This document shows positions 5,946-53,204 of a DNA stretch of 64,000 nucleotides, in pieces. Under the pieces are notes generated by a model, which was not told the DNA's origin, did no database searches, and saw only the letters and a list, made by a program, of their open reading frames with translations. The DNA lies in assembly GCA_003212415.1 (NCBI GenBank), contig QCPT01000002.1:37055-101054 (forward strand), in the 5' to 3' direction. Every line of letters begins with the position of its first letter. Positions within the stretch are counted from its first letter, which is position 1. Origin of the DNA: Pelagibacteraceae bacterium AG-439-F23. GTDB lineage: Bacteria; Pseudomonadota; Alphaproteobacteria; Pelagibacterales; Pelagibacteraceae. The position numbers and the translations under genes were made by a program.

Positions 5946-6359
5946 ATGTCTGAAAGTATAGAACAAAAGTGTATAGCAAAAGGAGTTAAGCTAACCGATC
6001 AAAGAAAAATTATTGCAAAAATTATGAGCGATTCCCATGATCATCCAGATGTAGATGAATTGTACAAAAGGGCATCAAAAATAGATTCAAAAATTAGTAT
6101 TGCAACTGTCTATAGAACTGTAAAACTTTTTGAAGAATCCGGAATAGTTGCTAAGCATGATTTTAAAGGCGGTAAAGCAAGATATGAAGAACTAAATGAA
6201 GGTCATCATGATCATTTAATTGATATAAAAACTGGAGAAATAATAGAATTTGTTGATGAGGAAATTGAAAAATTACAAAAAAAAGTAGCAGATAAATATG
6301 GATACAAATTGGTTGATCATAAACTTGAATTGTATGGCATAAAAAAAAATAACCAATGA
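5946..6359 (+). CDS. fur: Fur-family transcriptional regulator
   Basis: KGVKLTDQRKIIAKIM, ATVYRTVKLFEESGIV, HHDHLI metal-site motif. Confidence 0.93.
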   Translation: MSESIEQKCIAKGVKLTDQRKIIAKIMSDSHDHPDVDELYKRASKIDSKISIATVYRTVKLFEESGIVAKHDFKGGKARYEELNEGHHDHLIDIKTGEIIEFVDEEIEKLQKKVADKYGYKLVDHKLELYGIKKNNQ

Positions 6360-9142: not shown

Positions 9143-10668
9143 CCTCATTAATACAAAATAAATTATTCATTTATATTATACCATTTATAATCGGTTTATT
9201 AACGTCTTATAGTCTTCCGCCTTATAGTTTCTTTTTTATAAACTTTATTACATTTCCTGCATTATTTTTTTATTTATTATTTAATTATCAAAAAGGAAAA
9301 TGGATATCTTTTAAGATTGGATGGATATTTGGTTTTGGATATTTCATTTCTAATCTATATTGGATATCAAACTCTCTTACTTTTGAAGAAATTTTTAAAC
9401 CTTTAATACCATTTTCATTAATTATTATTCCTTTATTTTTGGGATTATTTTATGGGCTTATCACATTTATTAGTTCATTTTTTAATCTTAAAAAAAATTT
9501 TTCTTCAATTTTAATATTTTCATTTTTTTTTTCACTCATTGAGTATTTAAGAAGTTTTATTTTTGGAGGATTTCCATGGAACTTGATTGTCTATAGTTTT
9601 ACAGATTATTTACAATTAATTCAAATTCTTTCACTAATTGGGACTTATACATTGAACCTTTTGTGTATTACTTTATTTTTAATACCTTGTGTAATTTTTT
9701 TTAATTATAAGAAAAAGAAAAAAATTCTTTTTTTATTCTTTTCAATTTTACTTCTAACCATAAATTTTTTTTATGGAACTTCAGTAATTAAAAAATATGA
9801 AAAATTTAATAAAATAAATTTGAATTTTGTAATAAAAATTATTTCACCAAAAGTGGATATTAAAAGATTTTTTGAAAATGAACCACCAGAAGAAACAATT
9901 TTAGAATTAATAAAATTAAGTGAACCTAATTATTCAGAAAATACACTTTTTATTTTTCCAGAAGGTGTTCTTTCTAATATTTATTTACAAGATTTAAAAA
10001 ATTTTAGTTATATATTTTCAGAAAATTTTTCAGACCAGCATAAGATAATTTTAGGCATAAGTAGTTATGAAAATTCAAAAATATTTAATTCACTAATAGT
10101 TTTAGATAAAGACGCAAATATATTAGCAAAATATGATAAAAATAAACTAGTTCCTTTTGGTGAGTATCTGCCATTTGAAAACTTATTAAGTAATTTTGGT
10201 TTAAAGAAAATTACTCAAGGATATCAATCTTTTTCTTCAAGTAATGAAAGAAACATAATTAAATTTGATAAAATTAGCTTTCTTCCTTTAATTTGTTATG
10301 AAGTAATTTATTCAGGAAATATTAATAAAAATAATGAAGATTTTGATTTTATAATTAATATATCTGAGGATGGATGGTTCGGAGATTCTGTTGGTCCACA
10401 TCAGCATTTTTCTCATTCTATATTTAGATCAATAGAAGAAGGAAAAAATTTAATACGTTCGGCAAACAATGGTATTTCGGCACATATTGACGCAACAGGA
10501 AAAGTAGTAGGTAAAATAAAATCAACTGAAAAGGGATTTATAGAGATTAGAAATATTCTAAAAATAAAAAATACTTTTTTTAATTCTCATGGCAATAAGA
10601 TCTTCTTTTATTTTTTAATTTTTTATATTAGTTTGATTTTTTTTTTAAAAAAAAAGGAGAATAAATGA
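9139..10668 (+). CDS. lnt: Apolipoprotein N-acyltransferase
   Basis: Polytopic N-terminus plus CN-hydrolase motifs ([42 protein letters not shown]); TTG start overlapping the ybeY stop. Confidence 0.95.
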
Positions 10669-21415: not shown

Positions 21416-21829
21416 ATGCGTTCTAGCACAGAATATATTGAAAAACTAAGAAAATCAGGCTTAAGACCAACCAAGCAAAGGATTACAATTTGTGAGCTTT
21501 TGTTTAATACTGATAAAACATTTCATTTTACAATCAATGATTTAACTAAAATTATAGAATTTAATTCTAACCAAAAAATTTCCTTAGCAACAGTTTATAA
21601 TACAATTCACGCATTTCAAAAAAAAGGATATCTTAAAGAAATAGCAATTAATTCAAGTCAAACTTATTTTGACACAAACATATCTGCTCACCATCACTTC
21701 TTTGATGAAAAAGAAAAAAAACTAATCGATTTAGAAGATGAAGATGTTTACCCAATCAAAATAAAAAAAACTATCCCAGGGAAAAAAATCAAATCAGTCG
21801 AAGTTCTTGTAAAAATCGATAAAATTTAA
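21416..21829 (+). CDS. irr: Irr/PerR-type Fur-family regulator
   Basis: LRKSGLRPTKQRITICELLF, SLATVYNTIHAFQKKGYL, SAHHHFFDE; divergent from fabA (irr next to fabA-fabB-fabI is a known alphaproteobacterial arrangement) and upstream of katG. Confidence 0.85.
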   Translation: MRSSTEYIEKLRKSGLRPTKQRITICELLFNTDKTFHFTINDLTKIIEFNSNQKISLATVYNTIHAFQKKGYLKEIAINSSQTYFDTNISAHHHFFDEKEKKLIDLEDEDVYPIKIKKTIPGKKIKSVEVLVKIDKI

Positions 21830-21832
21830 TAA

Positions 21833-21849
21833 TTTAGAAATATTCTAAA
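21833..21849. promoter_or_regulatory. ICE/Irr-box-like palindrome upstream of katG
   Basis: TTTAGAA-ATA-TTCTAAA, perfect 7+7 inverted repeat just 5' of TTGACA at 21853-21858. Confidence 0.8.
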
Positions 21850-21852
21850 CTG

Positions 21853-21879
21853 TTGACATTACTTTAGAATAATTATAAA
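21853..21879 (+). promoter_or_regulatory. Putative katG promoter (-35 TTGACA, -10 TATAAA)
   Basis: TTGACA 21853-21858 and TATAAA 21874-21879; spacer of 15 nt is shorter than ideal. Confidence 0.5.
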
Positions 21880-21888
21880 ATTGGTTAA

Positions 21889-24531
<2,643 letters not shown>

Positions 24532-46526: not shown

Positions 46527-48482
46527 ATGAACAAAAAATTATGGGAGGCGTCTTTATCCATAAAGAAAAAATCGAATTTATATAAATTTGAAAAATTTAT
46601 TTCAAAAAAATTTAATTTTAAGTCAAATAAGAATTATAAAAAATTATTTAATTGGAGCGTAAAAAACTTAGATTCATTTTGGAGTTCGGTTTGGGACTAT
46701 ACAAATGTTAAAGGTAGAAAAGTTGAGAAATTTAAACATTCAAAAGAATTTATAAAAAATAAATTTTTCGTAAATTCAAAGTTAAATTTTGCAGAAAATC
46801 TTCTTTCAAAAAAAGATAACACTAAAGCTGTTACTTTCATTAGTGAGAATGGTTATAGAGAAGTAAGATCATGGAAAAAATTAAATCATAATACTTCAAA
46901 GCTAATCAATTTTTTTAATAAAAACAAAATTTCCAAAAAAGATAGAATAGCAGCTTATATGACAAATCAAATAGAAACAGTTGAATGTTTTTTGGCCGCT
47001 TCAACAATTGGCGCTATATGGTCTTCATGTTCCCCTGATTTTGGAACCCAGGGTTTAATAGAAAGATTTTCTCAAATAAAACCAAAAATATTAATTATAA
47101 CAGATAGATATTATTATAATGGCAAAGAAATAAATATTTTAGCAAGACTTCCTTTAATTTTAAATAAAATAAAATCAATAAAAACTGTCCTGATAGTAAA
47201 TTATCCTGGAAAAAAATATTTAAAGCAAAAAAGAATAAAAGGAACAAAAATCCATAATTTAAATAAAATCTATGAAATTAAATATAATGAAATTAAATTT
47301 AAAAAATTTGATTTTGATCATGAATTAGCAATTTTGTATTCAAGTGGAACTACAGGTAAACCAAAATGCATATGTCATAGATCGGGGGGTGTTTTACTGC
47401 AACATTTAAAAGAACATCAATTACATTGTGAAGTAAAACCTGGAGATAATGTATTTTATTTTACTACTTGTGGATGGATGATGTGGAATTGGCTTTTAAC
47501 GTTTCTTGCATCAAGTGCATCTATTGTTTTGTTTGATGGTTTTCCAATGTATAAAAAAGATGATCTATTGTTTAAAATTGCAGATAAAGAAAAAATTACT
47601 CTTTTTGGTGTAAGTGCAAAATACATTGACCAATTGAGAAAATTAAATATAAAAATAAATTTAAAATATAAATTAAAAAAATTAAAAACGATTTGTTCGA
47701 CAGGCTCACCTCTTTCAGGTGACAGTTTTCAATATGTTTATGATAATATTAAAAAAAATGTTCATCTAGCTTCTATAGCAGGAGGAACAGATCTAGTTTC
47801 TTGTTTTGTTTTAGGAAATATTTATTCTCCAGTTTACAAAGGTCAAATTCAAAATAATGGTTTAGGAATGAATACTGATGTTTTTTCAGATAGAGGAAAA
47901 TCATTAATAAATAAAAAAGGAGAACTAGTTTGTAAAACACCTTTTCCATCAATGCCAAAATTGTTTTGGAATGATAAAAATAACAAAAAATACAAAAATG
48001 CTTATTTTAAAAAATTTAAAAATATTTGGCATCATGGAGATTATGCAGAAAGAAAAAAAAATGGTGGATATATTATTTATGGAAGATCAGATGCTACCTT
48101 AAACCCAGGAGGAGTTAGACTTGGAACAGCAGAAATTTATTCAGTCGTGGAAAAATTTAAAAATGTAAAAGAATCTATTGTTATAGGTCAATCGTGGGAC
48201 AATGATGTAAGGATAGTATTATTTTTAGTTCTTAACAAACCTAATACACTGGATGATTATTTTATTAATAAGTTAAAAAAAACTATAAGATCAGAAGCAT
48301 CACCAAGACACGTGCCTGCAAAAATAATACAAGTCAGCGATATTCCCAGAACCAAGAATGGTAAAATCGTAGAATTGGCTGTTAAAAATGTAATTGAAGG
48401 AAATAAGATTAAAAATATTGAAGCACTAGCAAATCCAAATGTATTAAAACAATTTAAGAATTTAAAACAATTAGAAACATAA
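46527..48482 (+). CDS. aacS: Acetoacetyl-CoA synthetase
   Basis: FAENLLSKKD..., ILYSSGTTGKPKCICHRSGGVLLQHLKEHQLHCEVKPGDNVFYFTTCGWMMWNW. Confidence 0.94.
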   Translation: MNKKLWEASLSIKKKSNLYKFEKFISKKFNFKSNKNYKKLFNWSVKNLDSFWSSVWDYTNVKGRKVEKFKHSKEFIKNKFFVNSKLNFAENLLSKKDNTKAVTFISENGYREVRSWKKLNHNTSKLINFFNKNKISKKDRIAAYMTNQIETVECFLAASTIGAIWSSCSPDFGTQGLIERFSQIKPKILIITDRYYYNGKEINILARLPLILNKIKSIKTVLIVNYPGKKYLKQKRIKGTKIHNLNKIYEIKYNEIKFKKFDFDHELAILYSSGTTGKPKCICHRSGGVLLQHLKEHQLHCEVKPGDNVFYFTTCGWMMWNWLLTFLASSASIVLFDGFPMYKKDDLLFKIADKEKITLFGVSAKYIDQLRKLNIKINLKYKLKKLKTICSTGSPLSGDSFQYVYDNIKKNVHLASIAGGTDLVSCFVLGNIYSPVYKGQIQNNGLGMNTDVFSDRGKSLINKKGELVCKTPFPSMPKLFWNDKNNKKYKNAYFKKFKNIWHHGDYAERKKNGGYIIYGRSDATLNPGGVRLGTAEIYSVVEKFKNVKESIVIGQSWDNDVRIVLFLVLNKPNTLDDYFINKLKKTIRSEASPRHVPAKIIQVSDIPRTKNGKIVELAVKNVIEGNKIKNIEALANPNVLKQFKNLKQLET

Positions 48483-49708
48483 TGATTAAAAATAAAATTA
48501 AGAGCCTAAATTTATCTGCAACATTAAGGATAAATGAAATCTCAAAAAAATTAGAAAAAGAAGGAAAAGAAATTATTAAATTTGGTTTTGGAGAGTCACC
48601 TTTTCCAGTTCCAAATAAAATTGTTGAGGAACTTAAAAAAAATGCACATCAAAAAAGTTATTTACCTATCCAAGGTTTAGAGGATCTCAGAGTTTCTATT
48701 TCAAAATATGAATCAAAAAAGAAAAATAAAAATTTTTCATCAGAACAAGTAATTGTTGGACCTGGATCAAAAGAACTTATGTTTTTACTTCATATTTCTT
48801 TTTATGGAGATGTAATACTTCCTACTCCGAGCTGGGTTTCTTATAAACCTCAGTCAATCATAGCAGACAATAAATTGCATTGGATCGAAACTTTTGCTGA
48901 AAATAATTGGTACCCATCAGCAGAAAGTATTGAAAAATTAGTACTTAAAAATAAAGAAAAAAATTATTTATTAATTTTAAATTCCCCAAATAATCCGTCA
49001 GGGCAAGTATGTAAAAATCTAAAACAAATAAGTGAAATTGTAAAAAAATATAAAATAATTGTTTTATCTGATGAAATTTATTCCGAACTAACTTTTGATG
49101 AAAGTTATGAATCCATATCAAATTTTTGTCCAGAAAAAGTTATTGTTAGTAATGGACTTAGTAAATGGTGTGGTGCAGGAGGATGGAGACTTGGTTATTT
49201 TGTAATTCCAAATGAATTAAATAACCTAAAAAATTCAATGAAAGTTTTGGCTAGCGAAACATTTTCGTCAGTTAGCGCACCAATTCAATTTGCTGCATTA
49301 TCAGCGTTTAATGAAGATCATAAAGATTACATCTTAAAATCAAAAAAAATTTTAAAAGCAGTAGGAGAATATGTTTTTAATAATTTAAAATCAAACAATG
49401 TTATTATGAACAAACCAATGGGTGGATTTTATTTAATGCCAGAATTTTTAAACAAAAATTTTAAAACTTCCACGGAAATGTGTGCTGACCTTTTAAACAA
49501 AAAGGGTGTAGCAATTTTACCTGGATCTGACTTTGGATTTTCAGGCGAAAAAATGATAAGCCGCTTAAGCTATACAGATTTTGATGGAAAAAATTTCATC
49601 TCAAACATAAATTTAGATACGAAATTAGATGAAGATTTAATTAAAAAATTTGCCCCAAAAATTACAGAAGGAACAAAAAAAATTAAAGATTGGGTTGAAA
49701 AAGCCTAA
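48482..49708 (+). CDS. Pyridoxal-phosphate aminotransferase, class I/II (aspartate aminotransferase-like)
   Basis: FGFGESPFPVP, LNSPNNPSGQVC, SNGLSKWCGAGGWRLGYF. Confidence 0.92.
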   Translation: MIKNKIKSLNLSATLRINEISKKLEKEGKEIIKFGFGESPFPVPNKIVEELKKNAHQKSYLPIQGLEDLRVSISKYESKKKNKNFSSEQVIVGPGSKELMFLLHISFYGDVILPTPSWVSYKPQSIIADNKLHWIETFAENNWYPSAESIEKLVLKNKEKNYLLILNSPNNPSGQVCKNLKQISEIVKKYKIIVLSDEIYSELTFDESYESISNFCPEKVIVSNGLSKWCGAGGWRLGYFVIPNELNNLKNSMKVLASETFSSVSAPIQFAALSAFNEDHKDYILKSKKILKAVGEYVFNNLKSNNVIMNKPMGGFYLMPEFLNKNFKTSTEMCADLLNKKGVAILPGSDFGFSGEKMISRLSYTDFDGKNFISNINLDTKLDEDLIKKFAPKITEGTKKIKDWVEKA

Positions 49709-49714
49709 TATAAC

Positions 49715-49731
49715 ATTAGAATTATTCTAAT
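49715..49731. promoter_or_regulatory. ICE/Irr-box-like palindrome upstream of the TAXI-TRAP operon
   Basis: ATTAGAAT-T-ATTCTAAT, perfect 17-nt palindrome, same TTAGAA-N3-TTCTAA core as the katG site. Confidence 0.7.
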
Positions 49732-49798
49732 AAACTTCTGGACAATTTAATTAAATTTTGTTTCAATTATTTATTATAATTAACTAAAGAGAGGGAAA

Positions 49799-50803
49799 AT
49801 GAGAAAAATATTATCTACCCTATTAAGTGCTCTGGTACTTTTTGCAGCATTATTTTCATTTAATACTGTTGCTAAATCTGCAGAGTTTTTTACGATAGGA
49901 ACAGGAGGTCCAACTGGAGTATATTTCCAAACTGGTAACGCTATTTGCAAAATGTTGCATAAATCAGCTATAGCTAAAGAGCATGGAAGAAAAAAAGGTA
50001 TAGATAAAGCTTATAGATGTACGGCTCCATCAACTGGAGGTTCTAACTATAATATTGGCCAAATAAAAGAAGGCGAATTTCAATTTGGTGTTGCTCAATC
50101 TGACTGGCAATATCATGCGGTAAATGGTTCTAGCAAATGGGAAGGAAAACAGTTTAAAGGTTTAAGAGCAGTATTTTCTGTTCATAATGAACCTTTCCAA
50201 ATTTGGGCTAGTGCAAAATCTGGTATTTCAGATTTTAGTGGTCTAAAAGGAAAAGTAGTTAACATAGGTAACCCTGGGTCTGGTCAAAGAGGAACTATGG
50301 AAGAGCTTATGAAAGCAATGGGAGTTGATAACAGTTTCTTTAAATCTGTAACTGAATTAACTTCATCAGAACAAGTAAAAGCTTTATGTGATGGTAAAAT
50401 TGATGCTTATGGATATTCTGTTGGATTTCCAAATGGAGCAATGGAGCAAGCAGCTACTTGTGCTGCAAAAGCAAAACCAATTAATTTAACAGGTGGACCT
50501 GTTCAAGGATTAATTGATGGCGCTGATTACTATGCTAAAGCAGTAATTCCAGCAGGCACTTATACTGGGCAAAATTCAGATGCTACTACTTTTGGTGTAA
50601 AAGCAACTGTTGTAACGAGTAATGCCGTTGAAGCAGATCTTGTTTATTTGGTTGTAAAAGCTGTTTTTGAGAACTTTGATGACTTCAGAAAACAACATCC
50701 TGCTTTTGCTCCTCTAAAAAAAGAAGATATGATTGCTGATGGTTTATCGGCTCCTTTGCATGAAGGTGCTAAAAGATATTATAAAGAAGTTGGATTAATG
50801 TAA
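49799..50803 (+). CDS. TRAP transporter TAXI-family solute-binding protein
   Basis: Signal peptide, FFTIGTGGPTGVYFQTGNAICKML..., TGGSNYNIGQIKEGEFQFGVAQSDWQ. Confidence 0.95.
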   Translation: MRKILSTLLSALVLFAALFSFNTVAKSAEFFTIGTGGPTGVYFQTGNAICKMLHKSAIAKEHGRKKGIDKAYRCTAPSTGGSNYNIGQIKEGEFQFGVAQSDWQYHAVNGSSKWEGKQFKGLRAVFSVHNEPFQIWASAKSGISDFSGLKGKVVNIGNPGSGQRGTMEELMKAMGVDNSFFKSVTELTSSEQVKALCDGKIDAYGYSVGFPNGAMEQAATCAAKAKPINLTGGPVQGLIDGADYYAKAVIPAGTYTGQNSDATTFGVKATVVTSNAVEADLVYLVVKAVFENFDDFRKQHPAFAPLKKEDMIADGLSAPLHEGAKRYYKEVGLM

Positions 50804-50829
50804 TCTATTTAATATAAACAAATTTAAAA

Positions 50830-50861
50830 AGGCCCAATATATTTGTTGGGCCTTTTTTTTT
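50830..50861 (+). terminator. Intrinsic terminator between TAXI binding protein and permease
   Basis: AGGCCCAA...TTGGGCCT followed by TTTTTTTT. Confidence 0.92.
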
Positions 50862-50882: not shown

Positions 50883-53204
50883 ATGATTGAAAACAATAGT
50901 GAAAAAATTAAAAGTAAAATCCAGGAAGATTTATCGCCTACTAAAAATTTAACTGGGATACATTTAAAAATTGTTGCAGCTATTGCAATTATTTGGTCTC
51001 TATTTCAACTTTGGTATGCATCTCCTTTTCCGTTTTGGTTTAATATTGGAATGTTCAAAGGTTTGCCAGCAAGAGCCATTCATTTGGGATTTGCTTTGTT
51101 GCTTGCATTTTTAATATTTCCTTATTCAAGAGGAAAAAAAATATCATCAATAGATATATTAATTAGTGCAATAGGAACTTTTTGTTGTCTATACATTTAT
51201 TTTTTTTATGATCAATTGGTTGAAAGAGGAGGCATTCTTTTAAAAATTACGTTAACCGAAAATTTCATAATTCCGGTAGAATTAATAATTGGAATATGTG
51301 GAATTTTAATATTACTTGAAGCGACAAGAAGAGTAATAGGAGTTCCATTAGTAGTAATAGCAATTTGTTTTTTATTATTTTCATATTTTGGAAAATATGC
51401 TCCTGATATGATTTCACATGGAGGTTTATCATTAAAAAGATTAGTGGGATTTCAATGGTTTGATCAAGAAGCTATATTTGGAATTCCAATTGGTGTTTCT
51501 GTTGATTTTATTTTTTTATTTGTCTTATTTGGGGCTCTTTTAGAAACAGCTGGTGGAGGAAAATATTTTTTAGATTTAGCTTTTGCTATGGTTGGAAAAA
51601 TGAGAGGAGGGCCAGCAAAAGCAGCAATCTTAGGCTCTGGTATGACTGGATTAATCTCGGGATCATCGATTGCAAATACCGTAACAACTGGAACTTTTAC
51701 AATTCCAATAATGAAAAAAACTGGTTTTTCAAAAGAAAAAGCGGGAGCCATAGAAGTTTCATCATCAGTTAACGGCCAAATTATGCCTCCAGTTATGGGC
51801 GCCGCAGCATTTGTAATGGCAAGTTTTATCGGAGTAACATACTTTGAAGTTGTTAAGCATGCATTTTTGCCAGCAATTATTTCTTATATTGCATTGTTTT
51901 ATATTTCTCATTTAGAAGCACTAAAACTAAATCTTAAAGGAATGGATGATGAAGACGTTCCCAATTTAAAAAAAATTTTTTTTTCGGGACTTCATTTTTT
52001 AATACCAATTTTTGTTTTAATTTACTTGTTAGTTTATATGAGATTTACAGCTTCATATTCAATTTTTTATGCAACTTTATCTCTAATTTTTGTAAATTTG
52101 ATAAACAAAATTATAAAAGAAAAAGATTTTAAATATTCTTTAATAAACTGGTTTAATCAAACAATTGTTGGATTTGAAAAAGGTGCTATTAATATGGTTG
52201 GCGTAGGTATTGCTATTGCTACAGCAGGAGTAATAGTTGGTGCAGTTGGATCAACTGGTTTAAGTACCAACTTAATCATTGTTATAGAGTCAATTGCTAA
52301 AGACAATGTGATAATTCTTTTATTTTTAACTATAATTTTGTGTTTATTGTTAGGAATGGGTCTACCGACTACTGCGAATTATGTTGTTGTTGCATCATTA
52401 ATGGCAACTGTTTTAGTTGATGTAGGTAATGCTTCTGGTTTTATTTTTCCACTTATAGCAGTTCATTTGTTTGTTTTTTATTTTGGACTAATGGCCGACG
52501 TAACACCTCCAGTGGGGCTTGCATCATATGCGGCAGCAGCAATATCAGGAGGGGATCCACTTAGAACTGGTGCCCAAGCATTTTGGTATAGCCTTAGAAC
52601 TGGAATTCTTCCAATTGTATTTTTGTTTAATCATGAATTACTATTAATAGGTATTGAAAATATATGGCATGCACTTTTAGTAATTGCAACTTCCTTAATT
52701 GGTATTTTAATATTTACAGCCGCAACACAAGGATGGTTTATTAATAAACTAAGATGGTATGAAATAATTATTTTTCTTGTAATTTCAATTTCATTTCTTT
52801 CTCCAGAATTTGTTTTAAATAAATTTTATCCTAAATATAATTATCTAGAATTAGATAAAATTCAAAATATAAAATTAGATCCAAAAAAAGAAGTAAGAAT
52901 AAAAGTTACAAGAGTAAGTGAATATGGAGAAAGGTACAAATTGTTTTTGATAGAAAAAAATACTTTTGATAATCAATATAATTTAGAAGAATACGGAATT
53001 AATTTGATAAATGATGAAGATAAAATTTTAGTTGATACTATAAAATGGAATGGAAATGCAAAAAAAGCTGGAATTGAAATGGGAGATTATATTACTGAAT
53101 TTAAAATCGAAAACTCAAATAGACCAAACAAAAAATTAGTATATCCAATTGCGCTATTATTATTATTAGTTTTTGGGTATCTAAATAAAAGAAGAACTAT
53201 CTAA
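50883..53204 (+). CDS. TRAP transporter 4TM/12TM fusion permease (TAXI type) with C-terminal extension
   Basis: GSGMTGLISGSSIANTVTTGTFTIPIMKKTGFS, LGMGLPTTANYVV, ADVTPPVGLASYAAAAISGGDPLRTG; about 110-aa soluble tail with PDZ-like AKKAGIEMGDYI. Confidence 0.95.
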   Translation: MIENNSEKIKSKIQEDLSPTKNLTGIHLKIVAAIAIIWSLFQLWYASPFPFWFNIGMFKGLPARAIHLGFALLLAFLIFPYSRGKKISSIDILISAIGTFCCLYIYFFYDQLVERGGILLKITLTENFIIPVELIIGICGILILLEATRRVIGVPLVVIAICFLLFSYFGKYAPDMISHGGLSLKRLVGFQWFDQEAIFGIPIGVSVDFIFLFVLFGALLETAGGGKYFLDLAFAMVGKMRGGPAKAAILGSGMTGLISGSSIANTVTTGTFTIPIMKKTGFSKEKAGAIEVSSSVNGQIMPPVMGAAAFVMASFIGVTYFEVVKHAFLPAIISYIALFYISHLEALKLNLKGMDDEDVPNLKKIFFSGLHFLIPIFVLIYLLVYMRFTASYSIFYATLSLIFVNLINKIIKEKDFKYSLINWFNQTIVGFEKGAINMVGVGIAIATAGVIVGAVGSTGLSTNLIIVIESIAKDNVIILLFLTIILCLLLGMGLPTTANYVVVASLMATVLVDVGNASGFIFPLIAVHLFVFYFGLMADVTPPVGLASYAAAAISGGDPLRTGAQAFWYSLRTGILPIVFLFNHELLLIGIENIWHALLVIATSLIGILIFTAATQGWFINKLRWYEIIIFLVISISFLSPEFVLNKFYPKYNYLELDKIQNIKLDPKKEVRIKVTRVSEYGERYKLFLIEKNTFDNQYNLEEYGINLINDEDKILVDTIKWNGNAKKAGIEMGDYITEFKIENSNRPNKKLVYPIALLLLLVFGYLNKRRTI

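Follow-up and report, generated by a model that had tools for sequence, protein, structure and literature searches.

What links a palindrome in front of a TAXI-type TRAP transporter with a catalase–peroxidase gene lying 27.9 kb away, and could both answer to the same regulator? SAR11 bacteria, which rank with the most abundant cells of the ocean, possess few regulators. In the window analysed here (the whole stretch of DNA, 64,000 nucleotides long), the palindrome ATTAGAATTATTCTAAT lies between an aminotransferase gene and the gene for a TAXI solute-binding protein (Table 1). The first-pass annotation had drawn attention to this element, given the distance to the katG copy as 28 kb and the gap in which it lies as 90 nt, and proposed that it might be an Irr/PerR site. 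The descriptive part of this account was borne out: the palindrome was found exactly where it had been placed, its TTAGAA-N3-TTCTAA core (49716–49730) is identical to the core at the katG operator, and 90 nt separate the aminotransferase stop codon from the TAXI start codon. The arrangement of the genes is stable, since the aminotransferase gene stands directly upstream of the TAXI gene in 112 of 113 orthologous loci, the remaining locus being a contig end.

Three copies of the exact core are present in the 1,084,689-base assembly, all of them within the window: one precedes katG (21834), one precedes the TAXI gene (49716), and one falls within the 3′ end of lnt (10547). When one or two mismatches were allowed, the pattern was not in excess, whether the window was compared with shuffles or the genome with the reversed control. 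One genome alone is therefore insufficient to judge the palindrome, hence the comparison with relatives that follows.

Table 1. Coordinates and characteristics of the genes and predicted elements discussed in the text
Feature	Position	Strand	Remarks
irr promoter box TTTAGAATAATAATAA	21394..21409	+	genus consensus TTTAGAATnATTATAA
irr, Fur-superfamily regulator	21416..21829	+	best NCBIfam match Irr; PerR-type metal ligands
katG operator box 1, TTAGAAATATTCTAA	21834..21848	.	between irr and katG
katG −35 element TTGACA	21853..21858	+	
katG operator box 2, TTTAGAATAATTATAA	21863..21878	+	over −10 region; only perfect genome match of the 16-mer
katG, catalase-peroxidase	21889..24105	+	
class I/II aminotransferase	48482..49708	+	stop 7 bp ahead of operator core
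palindromic operator (predicted) ATTAGAATTATTCTAAT	49715..49731	.	16 bp invariant in G000, G313, G158, G094, G176, G101/G120
predicted −35 TGGACA	49739..49744	+	8 bp downstream of operator core
predicted −10 TTCAAT	49762..49767	+	17 bp after −35; TTAGAAT/TTAAAAT in other orthologues
TATAAT of the first-pass annotation	49775..49780	+	variable among orthologues, without −35 partner
TAXI-family TRAP solute-binding protein	49799..50803	+	TIGR02122, 297 bits, above cut-off
intrinsic terminator between binding-protein and permease genes	50826..50857	+	
fused TRAP permease, C-terminal DUF3394 ('claw')	50883..53204	+	TIGR02123, 646.7 bits, above cut-off; PF06808, PF11874

Occurrence and turnover of the palindrome in SAR11 genomes

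In an unbiased search through 399 SAR11 genomes (about 390 million bases), the perfect palindrome TTAGAATnATTCTAA turned up at 29 sites and the reversed control at about 20. Ten of these sites are TAXI promoters, in one case (G291) ahead of a truncated TAXI reading frame, and seven are irr–katG junctions. The others are coding, scattered or situated before other genes; one, G144:C10, was not read. Because the TAXI gaps make up some 10 kb of the roughly 390 million bases, ten perfect sites there are not a matter of chance. When up to one mismatch was accepted, 20 of 112 TAXI gaps contained a site against 0.27 expected from dinucleotide shuffles, a count which is inflated, since many of the orthologues are related and do not represent 20 independent events. 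The gap that separates the binding-protein gene from the permease gene served as a control; a one-mismatch site was present there in two of 54 cases, both from the near-identical genomes G101 and G120.

A close TAXI orthologue was found in 114 of the 399 genomes of the genus, and the upstream region was read in 113. Direct reading of the window's own clade (G000, G313, G158, G094, G176 and the near-identical G101/G120, counted together) showed 16 bp, ATTAGAATTATTCTAA, to be invariant, while third positions in the adjacent coding sequence differ by 19–40% across these six lineages. The probability that 16 columns would all stay invariant at the third-position rate is about 7e-8, a rough figure in which the columns are treated as independent. 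The footprinting suggested as a check in the first-pass annotation thus gave a positive result: the palindrome is kept letter for letter in this clade, with the exception of G072, and recurs in other clades. In G072, whose TAXI protein is 97% identical and in which irr is present, the box is absent through a local deletion.

The box is found in 22 of the 113 orthologues and is absent from about 80% of them; the TAXI site is lineage-specific. Relative to the promoter it adopts four recurring arrangements and one singleton (G107). Besides the arrangement in the window's clade, TTATAATAATTCTAA is placed beside the −35 element (G157, G215, G181, G256 and G122), TTTAGAATTAyTCTAGA covers the −35 element (G065, G083 and G161), and TTAGAATTGTTCTAA or TTAGAATAATTCTAA covers the −10 element (G020, G202, G156, G015, G144 and G338). 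Within this last set, as between the subclades of clade C, the box varies at its two central bases only. On a tree of 112 orthologues, on which gains and losses are not distinguishable, presence and absence of the box imply at least seven changes, four of them forced by well-supported branches. As for the regulator gene, irr was detected in 17 of the 22 box-bearing genomes; of the five in which it was not, two (G157 and G122) have contigs that break off immediately before katG, at the expected place of irr. The latter gene is present in 18 of 22 genomes with the box and in 25 of 58 without it (Fisher p 0.002 on raw counts), an association which is not significant once corrected for relatedness.

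Two other explanations have to be weighed against these data. The palindrome might have arisen by chance in A/T-rich DNA, as both the unenriched one- to two-mismatch pattern in window and genome and the many orthologues without a box would allow. However, chance would hardly keep the box invariant at the level of third-position divergence found next to it, nor place over a third of all perfect sites before TAXI genes and sites in the TAXI gaps so far above expectation. This explanation, which we regard as extremely improbable, was rejected on the basis of orthologue conservation. Alternatively, the aminotransferase gene could end in a terminator stem or another RNA element formed by the palindrome, an outcome that the first-pass annotation had named as fatal to its proposal. 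A 7-bp hairpin is indeed possible, starting 7 bp past the stop codon, but it would be a weak one, with a stem made of A/T pairs throughout and no U tract; the fold energy of the stretch has a z-score of −1.7, and the terminator scan was negative at the palindrome. Moreover, most orthologues with identical gene order lack the palindrome, and the box of clades C and D lies inside the promoter. In view of the hairpin features, the negative scan and the promoter placement elsewhere, this explanation was likewise rejected, and we give it hardly any credence.

The irr–katG locus and its regulator

The copy before katG belongs to a locus in which boxes are a general feature. A TTTAGAATnATTATAA-type box with at most two mismatches precedes the irr start codon by about 21 bp in 29 of 30 irr loci of the genus. 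The promoter that follows irr contains one or two further boxes in most loci, one just 5′ of TTGACA in many lineages and one over the −10 element nearly always. The gene served by this promoter is katG here, a peroxiredoxin gene in G072 and a rubrerythrin gene in L065, L067 and L070 (the peroxiredoxin and the rubrerythrin were identified by reading their sequences), and the boxes are retained in each case. Since TTTAGAATnATTATAA occurs across the genus both at the irr promoter and at the promoter of the next gene, the copy before katG is to be regarded as a genuine operator. The predicted box thereby marks irr together with an adjoining, exchangeable slot for peroxide defence (21416–24105 in the window; L050, L065, L067 and L070). 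In some relatives (L075 and L077), two tandem irr-like genes are apparent before katG.

Taken with the conservation described above, these observations indicate that the TAXI palindrome is very probably a functional operator shared with irr–katG. The idea of an Irr/PerR site likewise gained support, the same motif being present throughout the genus at irr and at the peroxide-defence gene next to it.

The irr product contains a PF01475 domain of the Fur superfamily (72.4 bits). Its best NCBIfam match is NF045678 (IrrA), with 132.5 bits for a cut-off of 150, and it reaches 123.4 bits with NF045677 (Irr), for which the cut-off is 170; the PerR models give 61 bits at most and Fur 38, far under the Irr scores. 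The HHH (HxH) motif is present as SAHHHFF. On comparison with the PerR sequence from the 2FE3 alignment, none of the 30 SAR11 Irr sequences deviates at H37, D85, H91, H93 or D104, the regulatory metal ligands of Bacillus PerR, and C96 and C99, the structural zinc cysteines of PerR, are replaced in all 30. The closest solved structure is also that of PerR (2FE3, E 1e-11). The Cys-Pro of the N-terminal heme regulatory motif is absent from the Irr sequence; this motif is of the Bradyrhizobium type, is lacking in many Irr proteins and does not define the family. The regulator is thus probably an Irr with a PerR-like metal site, and may work like PerR, though it is not classed as one.

The box could in principle be bound by another protein, since the genome holds three Fur-superfamily genes, and A/T-rich palindromes can be common to related members of the Fur family. 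The binder would then be the Fur/Mur-like product of the gene at 5946–6359 or the third member, encoded on contig C19, and Irr would merely be a target. The genus-wide box at the irr promoter and at the neighbouring gene rather fits autoregulation, however, and the gene at 5946–6359 has no box nearby, which makes this alternative quite improbable in our estimation. Irr itself is likely to be the protein that binds the shared box.

Promoter geometry and the proposed mode of control

In the aligned orthologues, the common −35 element reads CTGGACA, CTAGACA, CTATACA or CTGTACA and is followed about 17 bp further on by a −10 element, often TTAGAAT, TTAAAAT or TTAGATT. The TATAAT on which the first-pass annotation had relied does exist, but is probably not the main −10 element; it was set aside in favour of the conserved pair further upstream, TGGACA-17-TTCAAT. 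In clade A, about 16 bp separate the centre of the box from the −35 hexamer downstream of it; clades C and D have the box overlapping the −10 or the −35 element. Repression is the likeliest mode of control, since the box is just 5′ of the −35 element here and over the −35 or −10 element in other clades. A Rhodobacter box over the transcription start has been interpreted as repressor geometry as well (PMC3413700).

We thus propose that Irr, encoded 28 kb away beside katG, would recognize the TAXI palindrome, and that Irr dimers would occupy TTAGAATnATTcTAA-type boxes at irr, at the adjoining peroxide-defence gene and, in some SAR11 lineages, the present one among them, at the TAXI gene. With low iron or heme and no peroxide, Irr would keep katG and the TAXI gene down; inactivation of Irr by heme or H2O2 would release both. 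That Irr is the binder, in which direction it acts and what it responds to are all inferred here. As a whole, the proposal that Irr binds and represses the irr, peroxide-defence and TAXI promoters appears fairly probable, and TAXI uptake would probably be tied to the iron or peroxide state of the cell.

A different outcome would result if Irr, bound upstream of the −35 element, activated the TAXI gene, uptake then going up at low iron or heme. The single box upstream of the −35 element in clade A is compatible with activation, and dual control by Irr has reportedly been described in Bradyrhizobium, to go by the title of a 2006 paper of Rudolph et al. Nevertheless, a box over the −10 or −35 element, as in clades C and D, fits repression, as does box 2 of katG, which covers the −10 region, and activation therefore seems unlikely to us.

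It is tempting to go one step further. SAR11 Irr could be a PerR-type peroxide sensor although it is of the heme/iron branch; it would govern the slot occupied by katG, peroxiredoxin or rubrerythrin, and the TAXI operator would have been repeatedly gained, moved or lost, thereby coupling amino-acid uptake to the peroxide state. We put this forward tentatively, as a possibility with the balance somewhat against it. Gain of a box may be easy, as the frequent −10 sequence TTAGAAT is itself an Irr half-site.

The transporter, other genes with a box and known systems

The assignment to the TAXI-TRAP family stands, but the description of the substrate as unknown was too cautious, the closest solved relative of the binding protein being VcGluP (8S4J, E 6e-96), the glutamate-specific TAXI protein of Vibrio cholerae (PMC11574862). 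The TAXI-TRAP of Cereibacter sphaeroides is a sodium-dependent L-glutamate transporter (PMC12632250). As a reasonable guess, the present transporter would take up glutamate or a close analogue. The terminator between its binding-protein and permease genes is a strong one, found as the same hairpin in G094, G157 and G101, and would yield more binding protein than permease. In G101:C17 and G120:C13, a one-mismatch box, TTATAATAACTCTAA, is located immediately before the TAXI permease gene.

Several other exact intergenic sites, whose downstream genes were identified by reading their sequences, provide further observations. Exact sites precede genes for AapJ-like amino-acid-binding proteins in G061 (L100) and G318 (L349), for a PotD-like binding protein in G065 (L089) and for sugar-binding proteins in G081 and G096 (L086/L104), as well as an acetamidase-like gene in G083 (L097). 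The boxes before these other binding-protein genes suggest a wider link between the box and uptake genes in some lineages. In G206 (L337) and G264 (L341), a perfect box lies 19–20 bp before a gene for a small membrane protein which is followed by an SDR-like gene, a pair that is a possible further member of the regulon. The third exact palindrome of the window (10547–10561), in the 3′ end of lnt, lies about 100 bp before metK, and the relative G072 (L079) has an exact copy at a comparable location.

In Candidatus Pelagibacter ubique, fur and irr transcripts tracked stationary phase more than iron (PMC2864753), and a study of 2011 reported no classic Fur boxes in this organism (PMC3090418). Irr boxes have been described in Rhodobacter sphaeroides at mbfA, which encodes a rubrerythrin-like protein, and at ccpA, both oxidative-stress genes (PMC3413700), so that there is precedent for a peroxide-defence gene under Irr. 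In the literature searched, we found no description of an Irr operator in SAR11 or of Irr control of a TAXI transporter. A box shared by irr, its peroxide-defence neighbour and a transporter for carbon and nitrogen constitutes a directly testable regulon. It suggests that peroxide or iron status might set amino-acid uptake in some SAR11 lineages and not in others.

The system combines traits of several known ones. On the transporter side, it resembles VcGluP–VcGluQM (8S4J) in its binding protein, for which this is the closest solved one, and in the DUF3394 claw domain of its permease. The Vibrio system is not known to be controlled by Irr. The L-glutamate transporter of Cereibacter sphaeroides is an alphaproteobacterial TAXI-TRAP like the present one, but is set in a different gene neighbourhood. 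On the regulatory side, the iron control element (ICE, or Irr box) has the consensus TTTAGAA-N3-TTCTAAA, and the TAXI site conforms to it, being a TTAGAA-N3-TTCTAA-type palindrome at a promoter. The likeness to the Irr/ICE systems of Rhizobiales and Rhodobacterales extends to a regulator of the Fur superfamily which has an HHH motif and lacks the structural zinc CxxC, to an A/T-rich promoter palindrome and to oxidative-stress targets. The SAR11 system differs from them in its targets, namely katG, peroxiredoxin or rubrerythrin beside irr plus the TAXI transporter, and in its second half-site, which is often ATTATAA instead of ATTCTAA. The box of Bacillus subtilis PerR, TTATAATnATTATAA, is nearly identical to that of SAR11, and the two systems also have in common the five metal ligands and a katG-type target. 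Contrary to Bacillus PerR, however, the SAR11 proteins do not possess the zinc cysteines C96 and C99, and the profile scores of the present one favour Irr over PerR.
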